Below, piece by piece: positions 11,198 through 43,948 of a DNA stretch of 53,640 nt. The first letter of the stretch is position 1, and every line of letters starts with the position of its first letter. This DNA is from a virus: positions 1 through 53,640 of the IMG/VR virus record IMGVR_UViG_3300022751_000002, one strand, 5' to 3'. The notes beneath the pieces were generated by a model. It was not told the DNA's origin. It saw only the letters and a program-made list of their open reading frames with translations, and did no database searches. The position numbers and the translations under genes were made by a program.

Positions 11198-11268
11198 GCA
11201 TTGGTAGTTTAATGGTAAAACAGCAGTCTCCAAAACTGTATTTAGAGGTTCGAATCCTTTCCTTTGTG
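11198..11268 (+). tRNA. tRNA-Trp(CCA)
   Basis: D arm GTTT-AATGGTA-AAAC, anticodon arm GCAGT-CTCCAAA-ACTGT with anticodon CCA, and T arm AGAGG-TTCGAAT-CCTTT are all standard; discriminator G suits Trp. The acceptor GCATTGG against CCTTTGT has two adjacent T-T mismatches in its middle. CCA is not encoded. Located beside the tRNA-like RNA, before a strong terminator. Confidence 0.8.
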
Positions 11269-11326
11269 CAACTATAGCGAAAGGCGAATTTAGAGAGGAA
11301 GCAGTAATTAAAAATTGTTTTCATGT

Positions 11327-17100: not shown

Positions 17101-20100
17101 ATGGCAAATGATGGTGTTATTACGCAAAAAGATATTATAGAAGATAAAGCCCTTACTATCGGTAAACAATATGCTGATAATATGGTTCAGGCGATTGAAG
17201 CAAATAAACAATTTGTTGAATCATTGAAAGCCATTAATAAATTGGCTCAGGAATTCAAAGGAATCAAAGATCAATCAGGATACATTACAGCCAAGCAACA
17301 GCAAGCTTTAGAAACTCAAAAAATGATTGATGCAATTAAGCGACAAGAAGCCGCTGAAATTTCCATGAATAAAATTGAGCAGGAAAGAATTAAAACATCT
17401 AAAGCCGATGCGGATGCTCAAAATAAATTGTCAGTTCAAAAGCAACGAGGCACTAAACTAACACTTGAAGAAAGAATTCAATTAGAAATAGCAAATAAAG
17501 CAGCAAAACAAGCTACTTTGGAAAGATTAGGATTGGTAGGCGCTTATACCAAATTAAACGCAGCAAGAACAGCCGCTAAAAAAACACTTTTAGATTTATT
17601 GGCGGCTGAAAACCAAGATATAAAAGCGATTAAAGAAGCGACTAAAGCTTTTGATGCTTTAGATAAACGAGTTCGTGCCGCTGATCAGGCTGTTGGTGAT
17701 TTTCATAAATCAGTTGGTAATTATCCAAATTTAAAAGGCTTTGCAAAAGGTTTAAAAGATTTGGCAGGGGCTTTTGGTTTGGTTGGCGGGATTACTGCAT
17801 TTGCTGCAATATTAGGTGATGCCTATAAAACTATAAAAGCTTTTGAACAATCATTAGCTGATTTAAGTTCAATTACAGGCGCAACGGGTAAAGACTTATC
17901 ATTTCTTAAAAACTCAGCTATTGATTTAGGTCAAAAGGTTCAAGGAGGCGCACAGGCTGTTGTTGAGGCTTATAAATTAATTGCAGGTGCTAAACCTGAA
18001 TTACTTGATAATGTTAAAGCATTGAACCAAGTGACAGAAGCCGCAATTACTTTATCTCAGGCTGCAGGTTTAGAACTTCCGGAAGCGGCAACTGCTTTAA
18101 CTGATGCAATGAATCAATTTGGCGCGGCGGCTGATGAAGCGCAAATTTTCATTGATGCTTTGGCTAATGGTGCAAAATATGGATCTGCTGAAATTCCTCA
18201 ATTAACTGAATCTTTATTAAAATTTGGGGCTGTTGCGCGTAGTTCTAATGTTAGCATACAGGAAAGCGTTGCATTAGTTGAATTATTGGCTGAGAATGGA
18301 TTAAAAGGAGCGGAAGCAGGTACAGCATTGAGAAATGTGTTATTGAAGATTTCAGCGCCTAATGCATTGCCGAAAATGGCACGTGCTGAATTTGAAAGAT
18401 TAGGTATTTCTTTAGAAGAATTAGGTAATAACGCTATTCCTATTCAAAGAAAATTAGAATTACTAAAACCATTATTAAAAGATAACGCATCGATTGTAAA
18501 AGTTTTTGGTCTTGAAAATGCAACGGCTGCAATCAACGTTCTTTCTCATACCGATAGATTGAAAGAGTTGACAGGTCAAATGAATGAACTTGGTACTGCT
18601 GAAAAACAAGCTGAAACTCGTATGAATACGTTAACAGGTAAAACGGAATTACTTAAAAGTACTTATGATAGTTTCATTTTATCAATCGGAAATGGTTCAG
18701 GTGTGGTTTCTGAGTTCTTTAAATTCTTTATCGATGGTGCAAGCGGTGCTTTAAAAGAATTAATCAGGTTAAATACTTCATGGGATGATTTGTTTGGTAA
18801 AGCAAAACTAGAAGGTGCTGCGGAAGGCGCTAAAGCATTTTCACAAAGATTGCAATTCCAAATGTCAGGAGGCTCAAAAGATGAGGCAGGGCAATTAGAT
18901 GCAATTAGAAAAGCAGCTTTCAATCAAAGAAAAGTATTGTATGAGGAATTTTTGAAAAATCAAAAGCAATTAAAAGATTTTAATCCTTGGGCGATTAATT
19001 TATCCGGCGTTAGCGGAAAGGATCTTAAAAAACGTAAAGAAGAACTTTTAAAAGCTATTGCATTAGAAGAAGAGGTCATGAATCAGGCTGAAGCCAAAAA
19101 ACTATCTTTAAATAAAAAGAAAGGTCCCGTTGCAACAGCAGAAACTCCAATTGTGGGATTATCAGACAAAGAACTTAAAGATGCTTTAAAACGCCAAAAA
19201 GAATTAAACGATACTTTGTTTGAATTGGAACACCAAAGGCTAGAAAGAATCGCCCAATTAAACGGTGAAATTGTTTCTGATGATAAATTAAAAGATGATA
19301 TCCGAATAGGTGCTGCTAAAAATGTAAACAAAGCCGAATTAGATTTAATCGATCTTGTTAAAAAGCATAAACTTGATGCTGATAAATTCGTTTTAGATGA
19401 AGATAAAATGAATGCCAATCAAAAGTTATTCATAGAGCGTGAAGCAGCCAACAAAATCGTTGATATAAATAAAAAAATGCAAAAAGACATTGATCAAATT
19501 CGTTTGTTCGATGAAGCATCATATACTAAATCAATGGAAAAGCGTATTTCTCGTATCAATGAGAATATGAATAAGGAGTTAGAACTTGAAAACATTCGTT
19601 TTAAGGAATTAGGCGATTTAGAATCATTGAAATTTAGTGAACGCGAAAAGCTTACGCAAGATCATGAAAACAGGATTTTTGAGATTAAAAAGAAAGCTGC
19701 GTTGGCTTCTTTGCGTGCCCAGGCTGATACTTTACAAAATGAATTAGATGCTTCAGATGCATTACCTGATAAAGAGCGTTTGACTGCTGAAAAACGTCAG
19801 GAAATAGCCGAAAAACTAAGTAAAGCTAAATCAGATATTGCAGAAAAAGAGTTAGAAAAAAATGATAAGAAGAATAAAAAAATATTAGATGCTGAATTAA
19901 AATTAGCTGAAGATATTAGAGAAATTTCAAATGATTTAGCTAATGCATTGGGAAGTTTAGCAGATGCAATTTCAGAACGTAAACTCCAAAATATTGAAGC
20001 TGAAATCGATAAAAACAATGAGTTTTATGATAAACAAATTGAATTAGCCGGCGAAGATGAAAAGCAAAAAGATCTTTTAGAAAAAGAGCGAGAAAAAAAG

Positions 20101-31690: not shown

Positions 31691-31696
31691 GCATTT

Positions 31697-31767
31697 CTAG
31701 TAGCGAAGTTAGGTTTCATGTCTCCCTTGGAAGGAGGAGTACTCAGGTTCGAATCCTGACTATTAGA
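31697..31767 (+). tRNA. tRNA-Pro(TGG)
   Basis: Acceptor CTAGTAG/CTATTAG (one G-T pair), anticodon arm TCTCC-CTTGGAA-GGAGG with anticodon TGG, T arm TCAGG-TTCGAAT-CCTGA, discriminator A. The D stem is weak (GAA/TTC) and position 8 is C instead of T. No encoded CCA. Confidence 0.85.
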
Positions 31768-31772
31768 CAAAT

Positions 31773-31844
31773 GTTCCGTTCGACACGTGGTTAAGTCATT
31801 ACCCTTTCAAGGTAAAGTCACGGGTTCGAATCCCGTACGGAATA
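31773..31844 (+). tRNA. tRNA-Glu(TTC)
   Basis: Acceptor GTTCCGT/ACGGAAT, D arm GAC/GTC, anticodon arm TTACC-CTTTCAA-GGTAA with anticodon TTC, T arm ACGGG-TTCGAAT-CCCGT, discriminator A. A well-formed cloverleaf without encoded CCA. Confidence 0.93.
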
Positions 31845-31849
31845 CAAAT

Positions 31850-31921
31850 TGATTTATAATGTAACGGTTAGCATACGAAACTTTGACTTTCGCTGTTTAG
31901 GTTCGAATCCTAATAAATCAA
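31850..31921 (+). tRNA. tRNA-Gln(TTG)
   Basis: Acceptor TGATTTA/TAAATCA is perfect, D arm ATG/CAT, anticodon arm CGAAA-CTTTGAC-TTTCG with anticodon TTG, T arm TTAGG-TTCGAAT-CCTAA, discriminator A. No encoded CCA. Confidence 0.92.
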
Positions 31922-31926
31922 CAAAT

Positions 31927-31999
31927 GGTGTTTTTGGACTAACGGTTAAGTCGTTTGCCTGTGAAGCAAAAAACGTGAGTTCGATTCTCACATTACACC
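31927..31999 (+). tRNA. tRNA-His(GTG)
   Basis: Anticodon arm TTTGC-CTGTGAA-GCAAA with anticodon GTG; D arm GAC/GTC; T arm GTGAG-TTCGATT-CTCAC. G at 31927 can be the His-specific G-1 opposite C73 (31999). The acceptor GTGTTTT against ATTACAC has two adjacent T-T mismatches, like tRNA-Trp of this phage. Confidence 0.87.
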
Positions 32000-32005
32000 C
32001 AAAAT

Positions 32006-32086
32006 GCGACTGTGGCTTTATTGAGAATGGCACATCTTGGCGGTTTAGACCCGTTAGCTTTGAAGGTTCAAGTCCTTTCAGTCGTA
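32006..32086 (+). tRNA. tRNA-Leu(TAG), unusual
   Basis: Acceptor GCGACTG/CAGTCGT and T arm GAAGG-TTCAAGT-CCTTT are good. The anticodon arm GGCGG-TTTAGAC-CCGTT gives anticodon TAG (reads CUA, Leu; not a stop suppressor). But 26 nt lie between acceptor and anticodon stem instead of about 18, and the variable region is only about 6 nt, short for a Leu tRNA. Identity is likely, the fold is irregular. Confidence 0.7.
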
Positions 32087-32095
32087 CAAATACTT

Positions 32096-32167
32096 TTCAG
32101 TATAGTTTAACGGATAAAATTTGCGGTTACGACCCGTGCGATGGGAGTTCGAATCTCTCTACTGAAA
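32096..32167 (+). tRNA. tRNA-Arg(ACG)
   Basis: Acceptor TTCAGTA/TACTGAA is perfect, D arm GTTT/AAAT, anticodon arm TGCGG-TTACGAC-CCGTG with anticodon ACG, T arm GGGAG-TTCGAAT-CTCTC, discriminator A. Last tRNA before the terminator. Confidence 0.9.
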
Positions 32168-32174
32168 CATTTTT

Positions 32175-40337: not shown

Positions 40338-40445
40338 TATATTTGTCTAGTGGTTTATTGTCGGATTAATCACAATACAAGACATATCAGAATTCCCTAA
40401 AGATCAGCTATCCGACAATAGCCCTTTAGGGAATTTCTACTTTTT
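40338..40445 (+). ncRNA. Crossing-helix (pseudoknot) RNA 1
   Basis: -7 box TATATTTG (40338-40345) precedes a region with two long complementary pairs: TATTGTCGGAT (40356-40366) with ATCCGACAATA (40410-40420), 11 bp, and AATTCCCTAAAG (40391-40402) with CTTTAGGGAATT (40424-40435), 12 bp. Their order is a-b-a'-b', a pseudoknot topology. The second stem, followed by TCTACTTTTT, also looks like a terminator, whose loop contains a'. The 3-nt linker is too short for both full stems together, so they may compete. No ORF. Same layout as 43600-43705. Confidence 0.6.
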
Positions 40446-40479
40446 AACACTTAATCAATAATAATTAAATATTTAAATC

Positions 40480-41091
40480 ATGGGAAAAGCCATCAAAGAA
40501 AAAGAAGTGAACGAAGAAGTTCAAGATGTACAAAAAGATTTTGAAATCAAATCTGCATCAATTAAAGACCATCAATGTACTTATGGTTATGAAATTTTAA
40601 CTGGTCCAACTCGCGGAGATCTTATTCCGGGGCGAAAAGGAGTTCATTTAATTCATGATGATTTGAATGAATGTTTTTCAGAGTTAAGCATTTTTCTAAT
40701 GCATATCGATGATTATTTCAAAAACGATGAGAACGTAAACAATCAAACTCCTTTATCAAAATTAGAGGAACATGAAGATTTAAATCGTTATTGGGTAACG
40801 GGTTTTAAAGTTACGGGATTCGACGAAAACAAATCAATTATTCTAACAGGTGAAAAATCTGTAACAAATGGATTGATCAAAATTGTTTCGCCGAAAATCA
40901 AACTTGATGGTACTTATTTGTACGTTGAAGAATTAAACGAAAGGCTGCGTATTGCTTTGAATGAAGTTGAAGCGTATATGAATGGTAAATCAGCGCCGAA
41001 ATTGGAACAAACCGAATTAGATCTTCAAGCTTTTGCACAAGAGGATAATTTACCAATTATTGGTGAAGATATGGAAAGCGCTGAAGTTTAA
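40480..41091 (+). CDS. Conserved phage protein, 203 aa
   Basis: MGKAIKEKEVNEEVQDVQKD, then YGYEILTGPTRGDLIPGRKG and a basic helical centre; an acidic C-terminus (EQTELDLQAFAQEDNLPIIG). An acidic tail is typical of single-stranded DNA binding partner proteins, but the family is not recognised. Preceded by the pseudoknot RNA; the helicase gene follows 3 nt later. Confidence 0.6.
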   Translation: MGKAIKEKEVNEEVQDVQKDFEIKSASIKDHQCTYGYEILTGPTRGDLIPGRKGVHLIHDDLNECFSELSIFLMHIDDYFKNDENVNNQTPLSKLEEHEDLNRYWVTGFKVTGFDENKSIILTGEKSVTNGLIKIVSPKIKLDGTYLYVEELNERLRIALNEVEAYMNGKSAPKLEQTELDLQAFAQEDNLPIIGEDMESAEV

Positions 41092-41094
41092 TTT

Positions 41095-42255
41095 ATGGTT
41101 TTTCAAGATCGTAAATATCAAAGTGATGCGATATCACATGGAATAAATTACCTTCTTGGCGATTCTAAAGAAAATGCATTACAGATACTACCGACAGGCT
41201 CAGGAAAGTCGGTAGTAATTGCAAAAATATTAGAGCCATTGCCCGGGAAAACAGTAATTCTTCAACCATCAAAAGAAATCTTAGAACAGAACTACGAAAA
41301 GTTTTCAAAATATGGCAGAGCTTCTATTTATTCAGCATCGGCCGGCCAAAAAGTAATTGATCGAATTACCTTTGCAACTATCGGTTCTATTATTGAAAAG
41401 CTTCATATGTTCAAAGGAACTGATTATTTCCTTATAGATGAATGCCATTTGTGTGGTCCGGAAAAAGGAATGTATCAAAAACTTTTTAAAGCTTTTCCAA
41501 AAGCTAAATTTTTAGGATTAACCGCAACGCCTTACCGCCTTACCCAAACTGAAGATGGGGCACAATTAATTTTCCTTACGCGCAGCCAACCAAGATTATT
41601 CCATAATGTCCTTTATTACGTTCAGAATTCAGTTTTATTTGATGCCGGATATTTGGCTAAACTAAGATATTTCTCTTATGATGTAGTTGACAGGTCTAAA
41701 CTAGAAATGAATAGCTCAGGAACCGACTTTACAACAGCGAGTTTAAGCCGATTATATAAATCGATAGACATGCCCTCGAAAATTGTAATGTACGCTAAAA
41801 TGATACTTTCTAAGCGAAAAAACGTTTTGATATTTTGTGCTACTATAGTCGAAGCCACAATTGTGATGCGTAGAATGCCGGGATCAGCTTTATTAACTTC
41901 AGAAACAAAAACTGTTGATAGAGAAAGAATATTGATGGATTTTAAAAAAGGCAGAATAAAATGTTTAGTGAATTGCTCGGTGCTCACAACCGGATTCGAT
42001 TATCCCGGATTAGAAGCTGTTTTGATTGCCCGTTCTACAATGTCATTATCATTATATTATCAGATTGTTGGTCGTGTAATGCGTATTTTCACCTATCCTG
42101 ATGGAACAAAAAAAGAAGGTTGGGTTGTAGATTTGGGAGGAAATATAAATTTCTTCGGAAAGATTGAAACAATGATCATCGAGGAACCTAAAAAAGGTCA
42201 GTTTTCTATATGGAACAATGGTCGGCAGTTAACCAACGTGCCATTAATTAAATAA
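41095..42255 (+). CDS. SF2 DEAD/DEAH-type helicase
   Basis: 386 residues with motif I PTGSGKS (33-39), motif II DECH (about 116-119), motif III TATPYR (about 143-148) and motif VI QIVGRVMR (about 322-329). This is a superfamily 2 DNA/RNA helicase of the type found in phage replication regions (UvsW/RecG-like roles). No Zn domain is visible. The start overlaps no other gene and follows by 3 nt. Confidence 0.9.
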   Translation: MVFQDRKYQSDAISHGINYLLGDSKENALQILPTGSGKSVVIAKILEPLPGKTVILQPSKEILEQNYEKFSKYGRASIYSASAGQKVIDRITFATIGSIIEKLHMFKGTDYFLIDECHLCGPEKGMYQKLFKAFPKAKFLGLTATPYRLTQTEDGAQLIFLTRSQPRLFHNVLYYVQNSVLFDAGYLAKLRYFSYDVVDRSKLEMNSSGTDFTTASLSRLYKSIDMPSKIVMYAKMILSKRKNVLIFCATIVEATIVMRRMPGSALLTSETKTVDRERILMDFKKGRIKCLVNCSVLTTGFDYPGLEAVLIARSTMSLSLYYQIVGRVMRIFTYPDGTKKEGWVVDLGGNINFFGKIETMIIEEPKKGQFSIWNNGRQLTNVPLIK

Positions 42256-42272
42256 CTTTAATAATAAATATT

Positions 42273-42905
42273 ATGAAAAAAATAAACATGACTGAGCAAT
42301 TAGAACAGTTAATTTCTGAAGAATCACGGATTAAAGAAATGCATTTAAAGGAATTTTGGAGTAAAAACCAAATGACTGAAAAATTATTCACAGTAGATCG
42401 TTTAGGAACTATTAGAGAAATTGAAATCACAGGAAATCATATTGGTTATCTATTTGAAGATAGAAATATTTGGCGACCGAATTATGATAAAGAAAAAAGA
42501 CCAAGCAAAAATTTAGTCGTTGCGTATATTGAATATGTAGAATCAATAAAAACCGCTGAACAGGTTGTTTATATTGATTATCGTGATAGGGGTACAGGCT
42601 GTTATAAATATTCTGATTTAATAAAAGAACCTCATTTTGCATTTAATGAATTTGAATTACAAACAGAATCAAAAAGGCTTTCTGAAACTTATGCACCAAA
42701 AGAAAATCATACTGCATGCGGTTATTGCGGAAAACAAACGCCTAATGATAAATTAGTAAATAGTACTATTATCGGGCGTGGGAGAAAAGAAGTTTATAAC
42801 GATTGGAAAAGACGTTATGAAAGCAAAGCAGTTGTAACTCATGAACCTATGAAATTTTGTTCAGGAACTTGCGCAGGAAATGAACAAATGTCACGTGAAG
42901 GATAA
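42273..42905 (+). CDS. Zinc-finger-containing protein, 210 aa
   Basis: MKKINMTEQLEQLISEESRI, a helical N-terminus, then a C-terminal CGYCGKQTP and FCSGTCAGNEQ, which form a four-Cys zinc ribbon (about residues 150-205). Contains DRGTGCYKYSDLI. Likely binds nucleic acid; downstream of the helicase. Family not recognised. Confidence 0.65.
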   Translation: MKKINMTEQLEQLISEESRIKEMHLKEFWSKNQMTEKLFTVDRLGTIREIEITGNHIGYLFEDRNIWRPNYDKEKRPSKNLVVAYIEYVESIKTAEQVVYIDYRDRGTGCYKYSDLIKEPHFAFNEFELQTESKRLSETYAPKENHTACGYCGKQTPNDKLVNSTIIGRGRKEVYNDWKRRYESKAVVTHEPMKFCSGTCAGNEQMSREG

Positions 42906-42920
42906 TTTAAATTAGAAATC

Positions 42921-43175
42921 ATGCCAACATGGAGAGAACACGCATCGCCAATTATAGCAAAAGTAATTGCTGATAATAAAGGAAAAACACCAAATGAAAT
43001 AAAAAAGGCTTTACATTCTGCCTATCCTTATGGAGAACGAGCCCGACACCCGTATAAAATATGGTGTGATGAAATAAAAGTTCAATTAAAAACGAAAGTT
43101 TCAAATTTAAAACCTCAAACGGAAAATCAGATTGATTTATTTGATATGATCCAGGAAGTGGAAAAAGAAAAGTAA
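42921..43175 (+). CDS. Conserved small phage protein, 84 aa
   Basis: MPTWREHASPIIAKVIADNK then ALHSAYPYGERARHPYKIW. The WREHASPIIA and YPYGER(x)HPYKIW motifs recur in Bacteroidetes phage hypotheticals. No function known to me. Confidence 0.65.
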   Translation: MPTWREHASPIIAKVIADNKGKTPNEIKKALHSAYPYGERARHPYKIWCDEIKVQLKTKVSNLKPQTENQIDLFDMIQEVEKEK

Positions 43176-43192
43176 TTTAAAAATTTATTATT

Positions 43193-43534
43193 ATGAAAAC
43201 AGGAATTGAGTTAATCACAGAAGAAAGACAAAAGCAAATCACAAAACATGGTTTTACGGCCGAGCACCACGCTTTAAATTCTGAAAAATGGTATAAAGAA
43301 TATCAATTAACAACATGCGCTAGTTTACTTATACACCAAGATCAGGAAAACGGATTAAATGACGCTTTAATTGATTTAGGAAAATCACAATTAAACAATT
43401 GGGATTTAGATTGGTTTGATAATATGATGCGTAGACCCGATAAAGAACGTTTAATTATTGCGGGTGCTTTAATTGCTGCCGAATTAGATCGTTTGAATTA
43501 TATTGAAGAAAATAACATTTCAGGAAGAGTGTAA
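43193..43534 (+). CDS. Conserved phage protein, possible nucleotide-pool link
   Basis: 113 residues: GIELITEERQKQITKHGFTA at the start and ERLIIAGALIAAELDRLNYI at the end. The GxELIxEERxxQ...EH / LIxAGALIAAEIDR pattern is shared by phage proteins and by the N-terminal region of phage dATP/dGTP diphosphohydrolases. The catalytic MazG-like residues are not evident, so function is not claimed. Confidence 0.6.
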   Translation: MKTGIELITEERQKQITKHGFTAEHHALNSEKWYKEYQLTTCASLLIHQDQENGLNDALIDLGKSQLNNWDLDWFDNMMRRPDKERLIIAGALIAAELDRLNYIEENNISGRV

Positions 43535-43594
43535 TTTAAAATCATTATAAATTACCTTAAATTGTTTGTAAATTCAAATAAATGTGTATTTTTG
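43535..43594 (+). promoter_or_regulatory. Palindrome-type promoter of RNA 2
   Basis: TTTAAAATCATTATAAA (43535-43551) is centred 44 nt upstream of TATTTTTG (43587-43594). The palindrome overlaps the stop codon region of the preceding gene. Drives the pseudoknot RNA and the following operon. Confidence 0.72.
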
Positions 43595-43599
43595 CTACT

Positions 43600-43705
43600 G
43601 TATTGAAGTGAGACGCAATACCAACTACAGTAACATAACGGAAAATATTATACAAGTCCTATCAGGGCGGCACGTCTCACACCTTTGCTAAACTGATAGG
43701 ATTTT
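43600..43705 (+). ncRNA. Crossing-helix (pseudoknot) RNA 2
   Basis: GTGAGACG (43608-43615) pairs with CGTCTCAC (43673-43680), and TCCTATCAG (43657-43665) pairs with CTGATAGGA (43693-43701, plus two weaker pairs). The order is a-b-a'-b', the same as RNA 1, and the linker between b and a' is 7 nt in both. The sequences are otherwise unrelated. The last stem is followed by TTTTG and could weakly terminate. It also holds GAAGT and AGTAACAT, words seen in the hairpin loop at 2536-2551. Confidence 0.6.
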
Positions 43706-43726
43706 GCTATTTAAATACTTTTTATT

Positions 43727-43948
43727 ATGATAACACCAAAACAACAAGCAGGAAATCTAATTGAAGATTTTTTATACAATCATACTCAATCGGGAGGCAT
43801 AGGAATAACCGAAAAACAAGCGATTAATTTTGCTTTAATTACTGCTAAAAAAATGCATTATGAATTATCAGATCTTCCACGCATTCCATACAATGAAAAA
43901 AGAACAGATTATTGGAAAATGGTAATTTATGAACTTGAAAAACTTTAA
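43727..43948 (+). CDS. Small helical protein, 73 aa
   Basis: MITPKQQAGNLIEDFLYNHT, ending TDYWKMVIYELEKL. This C-terminus and length match the minus-strand protein at 25706-25915 (SDWWKKVKYEIKEL). Both belong to a family typical of Bacteroidetes phages, function unknown. First gene downstream of RNA 2. Confidence 0.65.
   Translation: MITPKQQAGNLIEDFLYNHTQSGGIGITEKQAINFALITAKKMHYELSDLPRIPYNEKRTDYWKMVIYELEKL

Follow-up and report, generated by a model that had tools for sequence, protein, structure and literature searches.

Two intergenic phage RNAs with complementary hairpin loops belong to a large, apparently undescribed RNA family of Bacteroidota phages

Introduction

The IMG/VR virus record IMGVR_UViG_3300022751_000002, a stretch of 53,640 bases that was analysed at its full length (the window) and whose kin are Flavobacterium phages, includes two intergenic regions, named RNA1 and RNA2, in which four segments, a, b, a' and b', form two crossing helices. 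What do these two regions, which have a common layout and unlike sequences, encode, and what could they do for the genes that follow them? An earlier sequence-only reading had proposed crossing helices that might act as a terminator/antiterminator switch. Comparison with other phages leads to a different picture: each region consists of a promoter box followed by two hairpins with loops complementary to each other, and RNA1 and RNA2 are members of a large phage RNA family that had apparently not been described. On balance we lean to the view that these elements are horizontally exchanged promoters of the TAnnTTTG type, each followed by a leader or attenuator that would act in cis and in which the pairing between the loops would set the termination at the second hairpin.

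Results

Two hairpins with kissing loops

The crossing helices exist at both sites with the dimensions first noticed, 11 and 12 bp in RNA1 and 8 and 9 bp in RNA2, with linkers of 7 nucleotides (nt) between b and a' in both RNAs and of 3 nt between a' and b' in RNA1. What had been overlooked in both RNAs was a hairpin, P1, around strand a. Folding and comparison located strand a in the loop of this 5' hairpin and a' in the loop of a longer one, P2, which is followed by a U-rich run. The loops of P1 and P2 are complementary, so that a and a' form a kiss between two loops and not part of a bare pseudoknot. A classical H-type pseudoknot with mutually exclusive helices was ruled out because P1, which encloses strand a, is found in homologues, where it has compensatory changes. 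The 3-nt linker had been considered too short for both helices to coexist; by geometric reasoning the kissing layout is not obviously hindered by it, given the 7 nt that connect b with a' and the fact that P2 need only close the loop. Small local hairpins in RNA1 compete only with the outermost pairs of the kiss. No upstream segment competes for either P2 strand, and a search of 22 elements for an antiterminator helix capturing one of these strands found none above chance (mean z -0.5 and -0.4 for the two P2 strands), so that there is no support for the proposed switch in its classical terminator/antiterminator form.

Both sites in the window include all the features by which the family is defined, namely a TAnnTTTG box, P1 with strand a, P2 with strand a', a U-run and a gene. 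Elements are roughly 95-110 nt long and their loop complementarity extends over 6-11 nt. The -7 boxes were correctly recognised by the sequence-only reading, but their spacing was not, as strand a begins 10 nt (RNA1) and 13 nt (RNA2) after the box instead of the 6-10 nt claimed. The statement that a gene lies within 45 nt of the last helix was correct, the ATG being found after 44 nt in RNA1 and 25 nt in RNA2.

Many members have an internal loop, either AGUA/GAA(A) or GGA/GAA-like, between P2 and an inner stem, P2b. The AGUA/GAA(A) loop, which resembles the sarcin-ricin (bulged-G) motif, replaces the GGA/GAA-like loop of the RNA2 subfamily at L089:19800-19830, L017:19205-19230, L209:85-115 and L146:2656-2690. 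The order of one and the same kiss pair can also be inverted: CGUCUCAC comes first in L023:13609 and L018:12710, and GUGAGACG comes first in the window element with its box at 43587, as if pairing alone mattered.

Covariation and loop complementarity

A pattern that included only the kiss strands GTGAGACG and CGTCTCAC and a few flanking bases retrieved 24 viral contigs with 18 distinct sequences. Within this set P1, P2, P2b and the kiss pair in 97.9% of cells, and compensatory changes were found at 9 pairs (three in P1, five in P2 and one in P2b) as compared to 0-2 in slid controls. Having served as the search pattern, the kiss cannot vary in these sequences. R1, a covariance model built without the kiss pairs, identified elements with different loop sequences, and each of the 17 examined has loop-loop complements of 6-9 bp. 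When loops were swapped between elements the complementarity was mostly lost (p 7e-12). Two later R1 matches, one of them in a viral contig and the other in the Flavobacterium columnare phage FCV-3, also kiss. FCV-3 has a kiss between GUAGAGAG and CUCUCUAC in an RNA that is otherwise alike. The compensatory changes in homologues that the sequence-only reading had named as a test are present, and comparison at the sequence level establishes the paired structure and shows that P1, P2 and the kiss covary. RNA1 is backed by the common architecture and the scan statistics described below rather than by covariation of its own.

Scans and controls

Perfect complements occurring twice in the same order had been judged unlikely by chance. 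Alone this argument is weak, since crossing pairs are not rare in this AT-rich window: 10 other bare crossing pairs of at least 8 bp were found, mostly AT-rich or located within coding sequences. The full layout, on the other hand, is rare, and when G+C content, a TAnnTTTG box and a T-rich tail were demanded only the RNA1 and RNA2 sites were left in the window. A crossing pair at 17990-18101, which is located in an apparent coding sequence and has neither box nor U-run, was discarded as a chance occurrence.

A promoter-anchored scan starting from TAnnTTTG-like boxes in 184 loci (3.24 Mb of phage DNA) yielded 31 elements at a score of 52 or more, and none in controls consisting of order-1 Markov shuffles. 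A promoter-blind scan recovered most of the same elements, and in nearly all of its top matches TAnnTTTG was found 17-23 nt 5' of strand a. Noise is the probable source of the few minus-strand matches (L033, L047) and of some low-scoring AT-rich ones. It is hardly credible, in the light of these results, that the repeats arose by chance or constitute a recombination site working at the DNA level with no RNA role. It is true that AT-rich DNA contains bare crossing repeats of chance origin and that mosaic boundaries are found at the elements, but the compensatory changes include G-U pairs, the order of the segments and their distance to the promoter are fixed, the matches are biased to the sense strand, and the shuffled sequences gave nothing at the score mentioned. 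The description of RNA1 and RNA2 as structured, leader-like RNAs of common architecture and unlike sequence beside promoter boxes and genes was upheld.

Distribution and subfamilies

About 45 further elements were found in phages of Bacteroidota, among them Muminvirus, Flavobacterium phage 11b, and the F. columnare phages FCV and FCOV. In the subfamily of RNA2, represented by model R1, P1 is joined to P2 by a conserved A-rich spacer (AAAAUAUUAUA); RNA2, which is in the training set, scores 121 bits, and FCV-3, which is outside it, scores 83 bits. R1 did not retrieve RNA1, whose probable subfamily has an AAGACAU spacer and a P2 that lacks the GGA/GAA internal loop; the members seen are RNA1 in three phages, L020:5448 and L030:12391. 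Scanning viral contigs with an RNA1-type pattern added no true member; L208, the sole new contig, was rejected as a chance match that has no promoter box or P1/P2. R1 had no match in 150 Flavobacterium genomes under strict filters, in a search with no positive control of its own, and this is no more than a hint that phages and not chromosomes are the home of the RNA2 subfamily.

Blastn comparison of the L076 and L080 elements, from more distant and probably Bacteroides-type contigs, with named phages gave no match. One putative match links the region L150:2740-2930 to a Kehishuvirus record (host Bacteroides cellulosilyticus). L076 and L077 also include, on the minus strand near position 1000, another promoter-proximal repeat pair (AUCGUGUGGG...) preceding a strong terminator-like stem, with a different architecture.

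As the sequence-only reading had stated, no known family could be recognised. A search of the window with Rfam 15 found only tRNAs above threshold, and the matches at E up to 10 were to unrelated models far below threshold, none of them on RNA1 or RNA2. Searches of the open literature for kissing-loop or structured RNAs in Bacteroidota phages also gave no matching description.

The features of both sites are listed in Table 1. Elsewhere in the window there are six clustered phage tRNA genes at 31694-32168 (Pro, Glu, Gln, His, Leu and Arg) and a lone tRNA-Trp gene at 11198-11269.

Table 1. Location of the RNA1 and RNA2 features and of the genes that follow them (window coordinates)
Feature	Coordinates	Strand	Basis
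RNA1 promoter -7 box TATATTTG, Bacteroidota type	40338-40345	+	Box sequence; position matches other family members
RNA1 hairpin P1 (GUGGUU/AAUCAC), kiss strand a in loop	40350-40373	+	Folding and comparison
RNA1 kiss strand a (UAUUGUCGGAU)	40356-40366	+	11-bp helix with a'
RNA1 hairpin P2, terminator-like; b 40390-40402, b' 40424-40436	40390-40436	+	Folding; perfect 12-bp core 40391-40402/40424-40435
RNA1 kiss strand a' (AUCCGACAAUA), in P2 loop	40410-40420	+	Complement of a
RNA1 U-rich tail 3' of P2	40437-40447	+	Sequence
Gene 3' of RNA1, 203 amino acids, no Pfam match	40480-41091	+	Open reading frame
RNA2 promoter region, including -7 box TATTTTTG at 43587-43594	43534-43594	+	97% identity to sister phage carrying another RNA there
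RNA2 hairpin P1 (GUAUUG/CAAUAC), kiss strand a in loop	43600-43621	+	Folding; compensatory changes in relatives
RNA2 kiss strand a (GUGAGACG)	43608-43615	+	8-bp helix with a'
RNA2 A-rich single-stranded spacer (GGAAAAUAUUAUAC), conserved	43640-43653	+	Comparison of relatives
RNA2 hairpin P2 (43654-43665 with 43693-43704)	43654-43704	+	Folding; compensatory changes; perfect 9-bp core, b 43657-43665/b' 43693-43701
RNA2 P2 internal loop GGC/AAA (most relatives GGA/RAA)	within 43654-43704	+	Folding and comparison
RNA2 inner stem P2b, 43669-43672 with 43686-43689	within P2	+	Folding and comparison
RNA2 kiss strand a' (CGUCUCAC)	43673-43680	+	Complement of a
RNA2 U-rich tail (UUUUGCUAUUU); first three U overlap the P2 base	43702-43712	+	Sequence
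Gene 3' of RNA2, 73 amino acids, no Pfam match	43727-43948	+	Open reading frame

Position, downstream genes and mobility

The position of the elements is well defined by comparison. An open reading frame starts on the same strand within about 70 nt of the end of the match in 45 of the 45 elements with enough downstream sequence (46 elements in all), no TAnnTTTG was present between element and gene in the 30 elements checked, and in 20 of 22 elements a distance of 2-8 nt separates the -7 box from the start of P1. Most ATGs are preceded by an A/U-rich stretch. The genes themselves are diverse. They code for NUMOD4-HNH endonucleases, endonuclease VII, PcfK, DUF3560, an N6/N4 DNA methylase and a BT4734-like protein. 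Helicases, a KilA-N-like protein and numerous small proteins of unknown kind were added to these by reading of the sequence only. A ligand-sensing riboswitch, for which one would expect a conserved binding core and downstream genes united by function, was discarded since the genes found here share none.

NUMOD4-HNH homing endonuclease genes often follow the kissing elements (L017:19252, L088:11689, L153:12658, L190:5533, L203:1037 and L209:132). Five of the recurring homing-type endonucleases are related, and an apparent sixth HNH protein (L209) and a GIY-YIG protein (L210) were read from sequence only. This recurrence suggests that the RNA cassette is linked to homing genes.

Elements at least 85% identical occur between unrelated genes, and 50 pairs with this level of identity have no alignable flank on either side. 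At the RNA2 site of a sister phage (L002/L030) the promoter region (59/61) and the gene (230 of 244 aligned columns) are kept, and between them there is a sequence-unrelated RNA with the same kissing architecture. Conversely, phage L003 has kept the promoter and RNA2 at about 98%, and divergence begins at the start codon. The gene for the 203-amino acid protein has an element in front of it in some phages and none in others. These alignments demonstrate that the elements behave as mobile cassettes, exchanged horizontally between Bacteroidota phages as putative control units.

Discussion

A possible mechanism and its alternatives

With P1 only 2-8 nt behind the -7 box in most members, transcription would start at P1 or next to it. 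P2 with its U-run resembles an intrinsic terminator, and transcription may end there in part. The gene is too close for a second promoter, so the polymerase would have to pass P2 to reach it. The output would be a short, stable, terminated RNA and, in lesser quantity, an mRNA that results from read-through and is protected at its 5' end; the kiss would set the ratio of both by determining how well P2 terminates. The start of transcription, the termination at P2 and its dependence on the kiss are inferences.

Several observations speak against a cis-acting attenuator. The U-runs are moderate and sometimes interrupted. Although P2 and its U-run are present as a G+C stem followed by U residues, a simple terminator scan flagged neither site; it allows only loops of 3-8 nt and was for this reason uninformative. 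Phage genomes are compact, and a small RNA that stands on its own would therefore also be likely to have a gene close behind it. As A/U-rich leaders are favoured by translation in Bacteroidota, part of the U-run could serve initiation.

One alternative is that the elements are free-standing genes for terminated RNAs of about 100 nt that act in trans, with host RNA, a host RNA-binding protein and RNA polymerase as conceivable targets, and that the downstream gene is a bystander expressed through leaky termination. Such genes would have their own promoter, a 5' hairpin and a terminator-like 3' hairpin, as found here, the conserved A-rich single-stranded spacer could bind a protein, and several phages carry two to three copies. 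We regard this as rather unlikely, however, given the closeness of a same-strand gene start in all 45 elements with sufficient downstream sequence, the fact that the potential seed loops are paired to each other, and the dissimilarity of the kiss sequences among copies of one phage, which therefore have no shared target sequence.

In another alternative, the kissing structure, located at the very 5' end, shields phage mRNA from 5'-end-dependent decay, P2 does not terminate, and the U-rich tail is part of a ribosome landing site. This would agree with the start of P1 next to the -7 box in most members, the compact, knotted architecture and the A/U-rich stretch before most ATGs. It is nevertheless unlikely, as the U-run abuts a long P2 stem in most members, as in a terminator, and protection would need no more than a simple 5' hairpin.

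A broader form of the attenuator model, which we advance tentatively and hold to be possible rather than probable, is that these RNAs constitute a new class of genetic control element, sequence-free kissing locks exchanged as modules among the phages of a phylum, in which intramolecular loop-loop pairing within a terminator tunes termination, loops specific to each copy avoid cross-reaction within a genome, and coupling to homing endonuclease genes is frequent.

Comparison with known systems

The nearest parallel is probably provided by the promoter-early stem-loops (PeSLs), reportedly described by Arbiol et al. in 2010, which are mobile regulatory cassettes of T4-type phages. Like the elements reported here they are small intergenic cassettes with a promoter and a stem-loop located between different genes, and they are thought to drive module shuffling. 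PeSLs consist of a sigma-70 early promoter and a simple stem-loop, whereas here a Bacteroidota box is followed by two hairpins with covarying kissing loops, the second terminator-like, and then by the gene. The presence of a near-identical element between unrelated genes is thus a likeness only and does not imply membership.

The lambda pR'-tR' leader produces a terminated 6S RNA and is read through in a Q-dependent manner. It shares the order of phage promoter, short RNA, terminator and gene, and expression needs read-through, which is known in lambda and would apply here. It differs in being a single late-gene switch with a protein antiterminator and no kissing loops, as opposed to several elements per phage and no antiterminator identified.

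The put RNA of phage HK022 is conserved in sequence, has no kissing loops and promotes read-through. Processive antitermination of this kind, in which a nascent two-hairpin RNA modifies RNA polymerase to read through later terminators, would account for two hairpins that head the transcript, directly behind a phage promoter, and for a use that is general and not gene-specific. It is very improbable in this case because the second hairpin itself resembles a terminator and the element sequences vary strongly, unlike those of put.

Kissing-loop expression platforms and ColE1 RNAI/RNAII are similar to the present elements in that their loops pair over about 7 bp and covary in sequence. The kissing of cobalamin riboswitches needs a ligand core, which was not seen here, and that of RNAI/RNAII takes place between two RNAs. 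Finally, HMP_4078 is a candidate RNA of about the same length from Bacteroidetes that is found near phage genes; by its description (PMC8040213), palindromic and with no predicted terminator, it would differ from the present elements.

Implications

What the members of this family conserve is the pairing scheme and not the letters, so that RNA searches of the ordinary, sequence-based kind would overlook most of it. If the proposed action is true, the elements would be a portable on/off or dosage module for Bacteroidota phages, among them the F. columnare and Flavobacterium LMO phages that serve in experiments. They would also provide an orthogonal terminator part for Bacteroidota, and would account for one kind of mosaic boundary in Bacteroidota phage genomes.

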